Of a stretch of DNA of 38,816 nt, positions 1,343-30,350 are shown in pieces. The DNA is from a virus. The stretch is taken from positions 1 through 38,816 of the IMG/VR virus record IMGVR_UViG_3300047176_000016, one strand, 5' to 3'. Positions within the stretch are counted from its first letter, which is position 1. The number at the start of each line of letters is the position of its first letter. The position numbers were made by a program, and so were the translations under genes. Under the pieces are notes generated by a model. The model did not search any database and was not told where the DNA came from. It saw only the letters and a list, made by a program, of their open reading frames with translations.

Positions 1343-3052
1343 ATGTCAATTACGACAACAGGCAATTTAGGGCCAATGATTTTGCAATCGTTAGCTCCTG
1401 CTATGCTGTATGTGCCTACGCCAACCATGAATTATATTACGGTTTGCGACAAGGTCTCCATGCCAGCAAACGGGGGAACTACTTGCAGATTTATGCGCCC
1501 AAGAGCTTTACAGCCTCCAACTGTTCAGCTAGGTAATAGTGGTATCGATCCTCCGGCTCAAGTGCCTCAGAGGGATATCATAGACGCACAAATGGCGTTC
1601 TTCGGTCGATATGCCAGTGCCGAAGACTCATTCGATTATGTGTATAGACTGGCTGCATAATCAACGAGCAAGTGATATTACAAGACCAGGAAGGAGTTCT
1701 GGCTTGGGTATCTGAAAGACTTGCCGTAGCAATGAGACAGGCTTGAAAATATTAAGTAGGCCTGTATAAACCTCTTCTAAATAACTGGGAACTCTTGTAT
1801 ACTTTATACGGAACCGTATAGGAGTGATATGCAAGACAATCAGAGGGAAGAGTTATCGTATTTAGCCGGATTGTTCGATGGTGAAGGAACAATCTGCATA
1901 CAGAAGGATTCGAGACCATTATCCAAAGATAATGGTCGGAACTGGAACCCAATCTATAACATTACGTTTAGAGTTGGGATGATAGAGGAAAAGGCTATCA
2001 AAGGTTTTAAAGAGTTCTTTAAGGTAGGATTCATAGACTGCGAAAAAGTCTATCTTAAATTTAGACCGATGTGGAGATATTCCATAAGGGCTAAAGATGA
2101 TGCAAGAATGGTAATTGAGAAAATATTACCTTTCTTAAGGGTGAAAAAGCCACAAGCTGAATTAGCTCTAAGATATTTCGTAGATTGTCCTTCTCAAAGA
2201 GGACAGTATTTGACTCCAGAAGTGTTGGCAAAGAAAGAGCAATACTACCTTGAGATGAGAAGACTAAATGGAGTAGATAACTCACCCGCAACGACTAAAC
2301 GAAGGGGACGCCCACCTAGTGTGCGCGTATGCGATAGTCTGAACTCATAGGTGACTATGAGAGGGAGATCCGAAGAGGTTTCCCCGCTCACAATATAACG
2401 TGAGTCATAAAGTAACAGATTGGAAGATTTAATCCTCCGCGATTATATCGTATCCTCAGCGTCAGAAATAAACGCTGGTGGTGGAAGTAATGGTTTTAAT
2501 CCAACTAACCTTGGATTAACAGACTTTAGTTTAGTAGCTACGACTCTTGATACTAATAACGCTTATAAGTTCATGAGCGGTATTGAAGGTATGGACAGAT
2601 TCGGAACAGGCCCAGTCAGATCAGCCTATTTCATGCTGTCCTCGACTGAGTTACAGTCCGACTTTGATGCGTTGGGATCAGCTGGGGGTATTTCATTTAT
2701 ATCCCAGTGGAATTATCCAACAAATGCCTCTGCTCTTCCTTCTGAGTATGGCTCTGTAGCCAACATTAGGATTTTGACAAGTTCTGAGGCTCCAGTAGCT
2801 AGAAATGCCGTGGCTAATGCTTCTGGTACCCTTAACGATCTGTATTACAATACAGTGTTAGGTAAGCAAGCTATCACGCACATAAATCAAGATGGTTATT
2901 CCATGAATTTGATTTACCGTGATCCTTATTATTCTGGAATGCTTGCGCAAAACGCAACTTTGGCGGTTAAATTCGCCCAAGCTCAAGCGTTAACGCAAGA
3001 TACAGCTATCCGTCAACTCTTAAGCACTCGCTTAAGCAATTTGGGGGTGTAA
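1343..3052 (+). CDS. Major capsid protein, interrupted gene (3 coding segments)
   Basis: HK97-fold major capsid protein of the N4-gp56/P22-coat-like group. The coding segments are 1343-1612, 1654-1743 and 2423-3052. Each starts and ends on a codon boundary, and joined they give 329 residues, a normal length for the family. Segment 1 carries the N-terminal motif with NGGTT (residues about 44-48) and ends in AFFGRY. Segment 2 holds INEQVILQDQ, the conserved strand that follows that Tyr in relatives. Segment 3 begins EDLILRDYI and runs to the C-terminus through INQDGYS. Segments 2 and 3 are separated by a group I intron; segments 1 and 2 by a 41-nt insert that breaks the frame. Unprocessed, segment 1 runs on to a stop at 1658-1660. 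The family match is from memory of homologues. Confidence 0.88.
1613..1653 (+). other. 41-nt out-of-frame insert in the capsid gene
   Basis: Between the conserved FGRY and INEQV segments lie 41 extra bases, a length not divisible by three. The insert begins GCCAGT and ends ACTGGC, a perfect 6-bp inverted repeat exactly at both ends, so it can fold into a stem with a 29-nt loop that brings codons TAT (1610) and TGC (1654) together. A second, competing stem pairs GATTATG (1634-1640) with CATAATC (1656-1662). Read straight through, the frame hits TAA at 1658. Removing or skipping exactly 41 nt restores Y-C-I-I-N-E-Q at the family's spacing. Possible natures are a translational bypass element, a mobile mini-insertion, or an assembly error. 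Confidence 0.6.
1744..2422 (+). mobile_element. Group I intron in the major capsid gene
   Basis: A 679-nt intron with recognisable group I parts. At the 5' splice site, exon ACAGGCU pairs with internal guide GGCCUGU at 1759-1765, giving P1 with the required U.G wobble exactly at the splice point after 1743. P7 forms from GACTA (2293-2297, in ACGACTAAAC) and TAGTC (2335-2339, in GATAGTCTG). A P2-like hairpin TATACGG/CCGTATA lies at about 1806-1821. Three-prime hairpins are CTCATAG/CTATGAG (about 2344-2361) and CTCAC/GTGAG. The intron ends in G at 2422, and joining 1743 to 2423 gives the in-frame RQA-EDLIL expected of this coat family. The endonuclease frame runs into the P7 core. Confidence 0.88.
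1829..2350 (+). CDS. Intron-encoded LAGLIDADG homing endonuclease
   Basis: A 173-residue protein with one LAGLIDADG motif, LAGLFDGEG at residues 12-20, followed by the typical beta-strand TICI. A single motif at this length predicts a homodimeric endonuclease that cleaves intron-less capsid alleles and spreads the intron by recombination. Asp17 and Glu19 fall in the motif's acidic positions. The C-terminus is basic (KRRGRPPS), and its last codons overlap the intron's P7 core, so RNA structure and protein share sequence. The ATG follows GGAG at good spacing, so it is probably translated on its own. The spread depends on recombination, and the phage carries RecT and a YqaJ exonuclease. Confidence 0.9.
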   Translation: MQDNQREELSYLAGLFDGEGTICIQKDSRPLSKDNGRNWNPIYNITFRVGMIEEKAIKGFKEFFKVGFIDCEKVYLKFRPMWRYSIRAKDDARMVIEKILPFLRVKKPQAELALRYFVDCPSQRGQYLTPEVLAKKEQYYLEMRRLNGVDNSPATTKRRGRPPSVRVCDSLNS

Positions 3053-29411: not shown

Positions 29412-29700
29412 ATGCCATGTTTTTGTACTACTCCAGAAGAAGATCTTGAGGAAGCTGAGAAAAAGATAAAGAAGATGATGAGGGAATTAGTTCACGAAAT
29501 TAAATTGGTAAGGGAAAGAGGATATGACCCGGAAGTATTATTAAGGGATACTCATAAACTTATGGATCATATGTTCTATTATTAAGTGATACTCATAAAC
29601 TTATGGATCATATGTTCTATTATTAAGTGATACTCATAAACTTATGGATCATATGTTCTTTGGAAAATGTGATGAAAATTGGTATCCGGTAATTGAATAA
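29412..29700 (+). pseudogene. Small gene frameshifted by a 41-bp tandem repeat
   Basis: From ATG 29412 it reads a 57-residue charged helical protein (CTTPEEDLEEAEKKIKKMMR ... DHMFYY) to TAA at 29583. It stops because two extra 41-bp copies entered near its 3' end. Taking out 82 bp gives a longer tail ending F-F-G-K-C-D-E-N-W-Y-P-V-I-E with its stop at 29698-29700, overlapping the next ATG. A stronger ribosome site (AAGGAG) precedes another ATG at 29378 in a different frame, which may be a leader peptide of 23 residues. The short form may still be made. Confidence 0.5.
29540..29662. repeat. Three tandem copies of a 41-bp unit
   Basis: Copies at 29540-29580, 29581-29621 and 29622-29662 differ by only a few bases (a g/t at the seventh or eighth base of copy 1, and the end of copy 3). 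The unit lies inside a coding frame and is not a multiple of three. It is a recent slippage or recombination duplication. Confidence 0.9.
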
Positions 29701-30350
29701 TGGAAAAAAGAATAACAGAATTTTTGAAAGTAATTGAAGAAATTCCTTTGAATGAGAATGGATGTAAAATATGGCCCATGGGAATTAATTCATGTGGATA
29801 TGGGCATTTCTCGATCAAAAATAAATCTTATAATGTCTCTAGATTACTTCATCAAACTTTGAATCCAAGTTGTCATAAGGGAAAAGTAGTTAGGCATAAG
29901 TGTGACGTTCGTTCGTGTTGTAATATCGATCATTTAGAAATTGGCACCCAAAGACAAAATATAATGGATGCTTCAAATAGGAAAAGATTGCTATTTGGAG
30001 AGAAGAATAATAAAGCCAAGTTCACTAGAGAAATAGTTGAAGAAATAAGAACAAAATACCCAGGAAAGAGCACGATTGAATTAGCTAAAGAGTATAACAC
30101 TCACTCGCAAACAATAAGGTCTATGATCATAGGAAAAACGTGGAATCACGTGCCAGGTAAAAAACCATTGATAAATAGCAAAAGAGCTTTGGGTGAAAAA
30201 ATGGGAAGATCAAAATTAAGTGAAAAACAGGTATTGGAAATACGAAAATATTACCCTGAAAAAACAGGCCCACAACTAGCTAGAGAATATGGTGTTGGTC
30301 ATGCAATGATTTATGCAATAATTAAAAGAAAAAATTGGCTTCACATATGA
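29700..30350 (+). CDS. HNH homing endonuclease with two C-terminal HTH repeats
   Basis: A 216-residue free-standing HNH (HNH_3-type) endonuclease. The N-terminal domain holds NGCKIWPMGINSCGYGHF (residues about 19-36), SRLLHQ, VRHKCDVRSCCNIDHLEIG (about 63-82), and TQRQN; Cys68, Cys73, His80 and neighbours form the usual zinc-beta-beta-alpha core. Two related repeats follow: AKFTREIVEEIRTKYPGKST near 105 and SKLSEKQVLEIRKYYPEKTG near 170, each with an HTH (IELAKEYNTHSQTIRSMI and PQLAREYGVGHAMIYAII). They resemble the DNA-recognition repeats seen behind HNH nucleases. Its ATG overlaps the previous frame's stop and its stop overlaps the next ATG. Confidence 0.82.
   Translation: MEKRITEFLKVIEEIPLNENGCKIWPMGINSCGYGHFSIKNKSYNVSRLLHQTLNPSCHKGKVVRHKCDVRSCCNIDHLEIGTQRQNIMDASNRKRLLFGEKNNKAKFTREIVEEIRTKYPGKSTIELAKEYNTHSQTIRSMIIGKTWNHVPGKKPLINSKRALGEKMGRSKLSEKQVLEIRKYYPEKTGPQLAREYGVGHAMIYAIIKRKNWLHI

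Follow-up and report, generated by a model that had tools for sequence, protein, structure and literature searches.

How does a phage make its capsid protein from a gene whose reading frame is broken? In the window, as we call the whole stretch of 38,816 nucleotides analysed here, the capsid frame read straight from the ATG at 1343 runs for 105 codons and then halts at the TAA at 1658-1660. A sequence-only reading had correctly traced this break to a 41-nt block, which it placed at 1613-1653 between two conserved capsid segments, FGRY and INEQV; it proposed that ribosomes hop across the block, and named a removed RNA element and a mobile mini-insert as alternatives. Splice-aware protein-to-genome alignment with 80 related capsid loci moves the 41-nt insert to 1607-1647 (CGATATGCCAGTGCCGAAGACTCATTCGATTATGTGTATAG), with TTCTTCGGT on its 5′ side and ACTGGCTGCATAATC on its 3′ side. 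Intact relatives read FFGTGCIINEQV without interruption at this site, and since FGTGCIINEQV is invariant in the 11 intact capsids, FGRY is not a conserved segment but FG followed by two insert codons.

Skipping 41 nt does restore the capsid, which without its interruptions (the second lies at 1744-2422) has 329 codons, but the exons comprise 88, 32 and 209 codons and not 90, 30 and 209 as proposed. The perfect 6-bp inverted repeat GCCAGT/ACTGGC said to bound the block exists as described but bounds nothing, GCCAGT lying inside the block and ACTGGC being the first six bases of exon 2. Similarly, the homing-endonuclease intron said to start 90 nt downstream is present and bears a LAGLIDADG frame, but begins 96 nt past the block. 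The features discussed below are collected in Table 1.

Table 1. Positions of exons, putative introns and predicted pairings at the capsid locus of the window.
Feature	Position	Strand	Remarks
Capsid exon 1	1343-1606	+	88 codons, ending ...AFFG; last base is the 5′ splice-site U; from alignment with intact relatives
P1, 5′ strand (UCUUCGGU), end of exon 1	1599-1606	+	predicted to pair with 1619-1626; U1606-G1619 wobble at the splice site
Putative coreless mini-intron, 41 nt	1607-1647	+	begins directly 3′ of U1606 and ends with omega-G 1647
In-frame extension if unspliced, RYASAEDSFDYVYRLAA-stop	1607-1660	+	LAA codons 1649-1657, TAA 1658-1660; ssrA-like C-terminus
Internal guide, P10 strand (GCCAGU)	1613-1618	+	predicted to pair with 1648-1653; the inverted repeat noted earlier; exon/guide covariation in relatives
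Internal guide, P1 3′ strand (GCCGAAGA)	1619-1626	+	predicted to pair with 1599-1606
Bridge, mini strand (CUCAUU)	1627-1632	+	predicted to pair with 1731-1736; compensatory CUCAUC:GAUGAG in L088
Inner hairpin strand (GAUUAUG)	1634-1640	+	predicted to pair with exon 1656-1662 (CAUAAUC), enclosing the 3′ splice site
Capsid exon 2	1648-1743	+	32 codons, TGCIINEQV...AMRQA
P10, exon strand (ACUGGC)	1648-1653	+	start of exon 2
Bridge, exon strand (AAUGAG)	1731-1736	+	adjoins the partner intron's P1 strand on its 5′ side
Probable partner full group I intron	1744-2422	+	P1 1737-1743:1759-1765; P3 1771-1777:2301-2307; P7 2293-2297:2335-2339; helix positions read from sequence
LAGLIDADG homing endonuclease ORF	1829-2350	+	in the partner intron, overlapping the core; Pfam PF00961, E=2.5e-4, just under the curated cut-off
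Capsid exon 3	2423-3052	+	209 codons plus stop

The insert is one of a family. Among the 81 capsid loci formed by the window and its 80 relatives, 46 are free of capsid inserts, 15 relatives were flagged with inserts shorter than 100 nt, and full introns of about 200-1150 nt occur in other capsid loci. Two pattern scans that assumed neither a guide nor a neighbouring intron, together with one scan of genome contigs, raised the total to 42 distinct capsid inserts of 29-79 nt, hereafter minis, at codons 88, 91, 104 and 114; automatic calls for L045 (codon 91), L081, the distant L101 (noise) and the guide position in L112 were corrected or dropped. Counting both the capsid and the portal gene, minis are found at six sites. 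A search for cultured relatives returned one distant, weak match (28% identity), and MAG matches were scattered across unrelated phyla and are probably misbinned. We also observed that capsid genes of the window's phage group hold up to six introns (L091, L103, L106), portal genes having fewer. An assembly artefact was ruled out by the equal anatomy of dozens of contigs from different metagenomes. One outcome that the sequence-only reading had named as a refutation, an in-frame peptide insertion or a one-base indel, was likewise ruled out: minis whose length is a multiple of three occur, and none of them is open.

Comparison of the minis reveals a shared anatomy at the exon junctions. With boundaries chosen automatically, U precedes and G ends 120 of the 129 capsid inserts, minis and full introns together. 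All 42 minis end in G (omega-G), and in 42/42 the splice-site U stands opposite a guide G. The predicted P1 and P10 helices are paired in 291/294 and 198/210 cells, respectively. When inserts were swapped among loci with the same site, P1 and P10 pairing dropped, and the observed value was reached in none of 2000 swaps; shuffling the insert gave p < 0.02 for most minis, p-values throughout being partly blind to shared ancestry, an effect that the swaps and the tests with one value per combination lessen. Furthermore, the relatives carry compensatory exon/guide pairs (TTTGGT/CCAAA, ACAGG/CCTGT, ACCGG/CCGGT). The minis thus have the U-G P1, the covarying P10 and the terminal guanosine of group I introns and lack the catalytic core P3-P8; of the hallmarks of Phialophora-type introns they have P1, P10 and the pairing of the intron middle to the 3′ exon, and lack the terminal U. 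This covariation with the exons, similar to that of P1 and P10, supports the alternative of a removed RNA element.

If the mini has no core, one may be found nearby. A Rfam search at the gathering threshold gave no match in the window, and a permissive search of seven loci returned just one tRNA and one spurious overlapping match. As these searches found no core, we built a lineage-specific covariance model from P3, P4, P5, P6, P7 and P8 of the full introns, spanning about 110 nt. In the full introns 97% of the core cells are paired, 16 of 24 pairs show double-sided changes and P7 is invariant, and the model detects cores in most full introns and partners. The minis, at 29-79 nt, are too short to contain this core; in complete loci a full intron always lies 24-168 nt downstream of them. 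The one mini for which no downstream full intron is seen lies in a locus cut by the contig edge, and the same contig has a full intron in another locus. The scores for the window's own partner are weak (RF00028 E=0.005 at 2046-2361, under the gathering score; our lineage-specific model, E=0.09 at 2237-2343), perhaps because of the embedded ORF; taken with the core covariation in the relatives, they suggest that the element at 1744-2422 has the P3/P7/P8 core of a group I intron. Judged by its lack of a core, the mini is no complete group I intron; it would act like the substrate half of one.

Next to the guide, a further helix would tie each mini to its partner. Exon sequence adjoining the partner's P1 strand is complementary to the mini segment 3′ of the guide; it lies mostly 7-11 nt upstream of the partner's 5′ splice site where the partner is at codon 97, 101, 116, 120, 122 or 144, and 15 nt upstream where it is at codon 99. 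For minis at codon 88 the partner lies at codon 97, 99, 101, 120, 122 or 144, and the tail of the mini pairs in most cases with the flank of that particular partner. Tested against stretches from other parts of the same gene, the position of this bridge gave a combined p of 7e-8 (nine site/partner combinations, one median each), and swapping tails within one site and partner reached the observed score in 0 of 1000 trials. Compensatory changes are seen between L057 (GGCTAGA:TCTAGCC) and L070 (GGCGAGA:TCTCGCC) and between L083 (GAACC:GGTTC) and L100 (GATCC:GGATC). Taken alone, the window's bridge has 6 bp and a shuffle p of 0.14; we assign it tentatively, from the relatives. In the minimum-energy fold of 1595-1770, P1, the bridge, the inner hairpin and the partner's P1 are arranged end to end without gaps (z = -3.5), and the folds of other loci resemble it.

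A message that escapes splicing would be read into the intron. The unspliced capsid of the window ends in ...RLAA-stop, and other unspliced minis would give tails such as NEYALLAAA and AEDYDLDYARLAA. In the minis, AA-stop is found in frame in 29/38 (A-stop in 36/38) and in 0/38 in each of the other frames; for full introns the corresponding figures for AA-stop are 31/89 in frame vs 1/89 in the other frames. The tag is present in 23 of the 29 full introns past codon 60 that have no upstream mini, compared to 4 of 42 behind a mini (p = 2e-9) and none of 14 before codon 60 (p = 5e-7). Full introns of the relatives at capsid codons 10-50 never have an AA tail and mostly present an immediate stop. 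These counts suggest that truncated products of sizeable length end in AA, either via the intron itself or via a mini ahead of it. The ssrA tag is a known bacterial degradation tag with an AA C-terminus, and from this likeness we infer that the in-frame tails may act as ssrA-like degrons recruiting ClpXP.

Accounting for these observations together, we give a probability of roughly 0.8 to the reading of the 41-nt block as a satellite group I intron without a core, which is spliced from the pre-mRNA, most likely with the core of its neighbour, and whose unspliced tail would send the product to a protease. It builds on comparison of sequences for the boundaries, P1 and P10, the bridge, the absence of a core, the constant core downstream and the in-frame AA endings. 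As the mini contains no P3-P8, the core would most likely be supplied by the full intron at 1744-2422. The end of exon 1 and the internal guide would form P1 with its U-G wobble, and the guide and the 3′ exon would form P10. The bridge would link both introns, placing the mini's P1, the bridge and the partner's P1 end to end with exon 2 looped out, so that one group I core could serve two guide helices, the mini's and then its own. Because the core departs with the full intron, the mini would probably be excised first or together with it, leaving the predicted junctions TTCTTCGGT-ACTGGCTGC and GACAGGCT-GAAGATTTA in the spliced message. Where splicing fails, ribosomes would enter the mini and add a short tail ending in LAA, and the truncated capsid would be handed to a ClpXP-type protease.

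The hop across the 41 nt that had been proposed takes T4 gene 60 as its model, where a short frame-breaking gap with a hairpin lies close to a homing endonuclease gene. The capsid insert resembles it: it is non-coding, breaks the frame of an essential gene and has a hairpin, and a homing endonuclease gene is again close by. Matched take-off and landing codons, however, are missing here: comparing the last exon codon with the triplet before resumption gave 0 identical and 0 synonymous pairs in the 42 minis. Furthermore, length and sequence of the insert vary freely but the preceding U and the terminal G are constant; covariation tracks the exon junction in the manner of group I P1 and P10, with the U-G wobble exactly at the splice point; a partner-specific bridge has no role in a hop; and in-frame AA-stop endings imply that ribosomes terminate there normally. 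We regard translational bypass as hardly credible at this locus, and predict removal at the RNA level instead. Very unlikely, though a little less far-fetched, are a splice from the mini's 5′ site to the 3′ site of the downstream intron that skips exon 2, and a truncated capsid that is itself the product. Both 5′ splice sites are set by P1-type guide pairing, and skipping would preserve the frame in phase-0 cases; on the other hand, the protein sequence of exon 2 is conserved, the mini possesses a P10 and a terminal G of its own, and the AA endings occur in frame at many different positions.

The main rival to splicing by the partner's core is self-splicing by the mini alone, as an extremely reduced group I intron similar to the 63-75 nt introns of Phialophora rDNA, the downstream intron aiding folding or merely being co-inherited. 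P1, P10 and the pairing of the intron middle to the 3′ exon are as in Phialophora, of which a 67-nt member was spliced in vitro (PMC3160393). A P7 that binds guanosine, together with P3/P8, would nevertheless hardly fit into inserts of 29-49 nt; a full intron lies downstream of all minis in complete loci, each tail pairs next to its particular partner, and the terminal base is G here vs U in Phialophora. We therefore consider self-sufficient minis unlikely. Somewhat better placed, while still improbable, is the view that the AA endings reflect an RNA motif or common ancestry and not a degron, which concerns the degron alone and is compatible with splicing. LLAA codons do lie in the P5 loop region of many full introns, where they share a common descent. 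The endings, however, use varied codons, all three stops and varied positions, sometimes with exon bases out of frame; the excess is confined to the coding frame in minis and full introns alike, and the tag is absent before codon 60, where the truncated product would be short.

The reading of the minis as coreless satellites extends to longer elements. At codon 104 of four capsid loci (L057, L070, L076, L081), inserts of 946-978 nt have the anatomy of a mini and gave no match to the core model. In these inserts (1804-2756 in L057, 1763-2734 in L076) the tag is followed by a LAGLIDADG ORF (292 aa in L057, 288 aa in L076) and then by a 3′ end typical of a mini. A neighbouring core-bearing intron of about 200 nt has no endonuclease, endonuclease and ribozyme being split between the two introns. 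By these sequence features the long inserts are coreless introns with their own endonuclease, and the suggestion of a mobile mini-insert thus holds in part, for some codon-104 elements. We also carried out an out-of-sample test, in which the rules were fixed before other genes were searched and 80 relatives were scanned for inserts in the portal gene. The first portal mini was found in L092, and others at codon 49 (L175, L180/181/183) and codon 20 (L186, L198), with a full intron after each. P1, P10 and the terminal G are present in those of L175, L180, L186 and L198 (p = 0.001), each bridge is 7-10 nt away from the splice site of the partner (p = 0.001-0.008), and compensatory changes separate L186 from L198. 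Taken together with the capsid minis, we consider it likely that this is a natural two-intron, one-ribozyme system, in which the core splices a bridged satellite in cis and then itself, the satellite being able to carry an endonuclease of its own and to spread, and coding for a degron that would mark what is made from unspliced RNA.

Shortened relatives of a catalytic intron class are found in euglenid chloroplasts, where group III introns are thought to be helped in trans; these derive from group II and not group I, and we know of no partner-specific helix in them. The handing over of intron catalysis to another RNA is a proposed step in the origin of spliceosomal introns. If our reading is true, the minis would be a case of this in a bacterial virus: the ribozyme of a neighbour would sustain introns without a core of their own, at several sites and in both the capsid and the portal gene of ordinary phages. 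Such a parting of intron and catalyst, a step central to models of spliceosome origin, would become directly testable with short RNAs. The putative degron, lying in frame, points to phage introns having been shaped so as to limit harm from unspliced messages, an idea that we did not meet in the papers searched. Furthermore, before an insert of 30-80 nt that breaks the frame of a phage structural gene is put down to a pseudogene, a frameshift or an assembly error, it should be examined for this anatomy.

The closest natural relatives of the minis are fungal degenerate introns, and the closest mechanism is that of an engineered spliceozyme. Small degenerate group I introns are already known from fungal rDNA (Phialophora PaSSU and relatives, Arthonia lapidicola, Porpidia crustulata); like the minis they measure tens of nucleotides, have a P10 and lack most of the core, and for one member, the 67-nt mini spliced in vitro without any neighbour intron being described, splicing is of the group I type (PMC3160393). 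The fungal introns occupy two positions in rRNA genes, have a terminal U and a reported P7, need a long exon context and have no described partner (PMC3160393), whereas the phage minis, known here from sequence, interrupt protein genes at six sites in two genes, end in G and measure 29-79 nt, pair to the flank of a specific downstream full intron, include endonuclease-bearing forms and encode a putative in-frame degron. In the group I spliceozyme, an engineered Tetrahymena ribozyme, a group I core removes a core-less intron and P1 plus a second helix place the substrate, as we propose here; the spliceozyme acts in trans and holds the guide itself (PMC4094466), in contrast to the natural arrangement proposed here, where the substrate intron contains the guide and a downstream core acts in cis. 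The full introns resemble phage group I introns (T4 td/nrdB/nrdD, SPO1, the LittleE Cluster J capsid intron) in the 5′ splice-site U, 3′ G, LAGLIDADG ORF and capsid location, and the sections of the account considered here describe neither coreless companions nor degron-coded 5′ ends for them (PMC3706429). In the open-access literature (few subscription papers fell within the search) we found no natural group I intron that lacks a core and is served by that of a neighbour, and no intron-encoded ssrA-like tag. The partner helix, the endonuclease-bearing coreless form and the degron appear to be new.

A few further observations concern other parts of these genomes. In the window, about 560 nt (780-1342) separate an upstream ORF (108-779) from the capsid start, and a small reverse-strand ORF is found at 879-1142. 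A 96%-identical relative, L002, has a tRNA gene upstream of the capsid at 1480-1552 (Rfam RF00005, 70 bits); a tRNA gene was looked for in the window and none was found. Pfam identifies in the window, at 29700-30350, a free-standing HNH endonuclease ORF whose C-terminal segment is Mor-like. Finally, at portal codons 49-50, nearly the position of the portal minis, L144, L153 and L173 carry inserts of 48-53 nt that form near-perfect 17-18 bp hairpins (-34 to -42 kcal/mol), contain an in-frame stop and have no intron mapped close by. The Arg codon CGG precedes the gap and recurs at its end in L144, the corresponding codons are CGG/CGA in L173, and L153 does not fit; with CGG at both ends, L144 is a possible candidate for genuine ribosome bypass.
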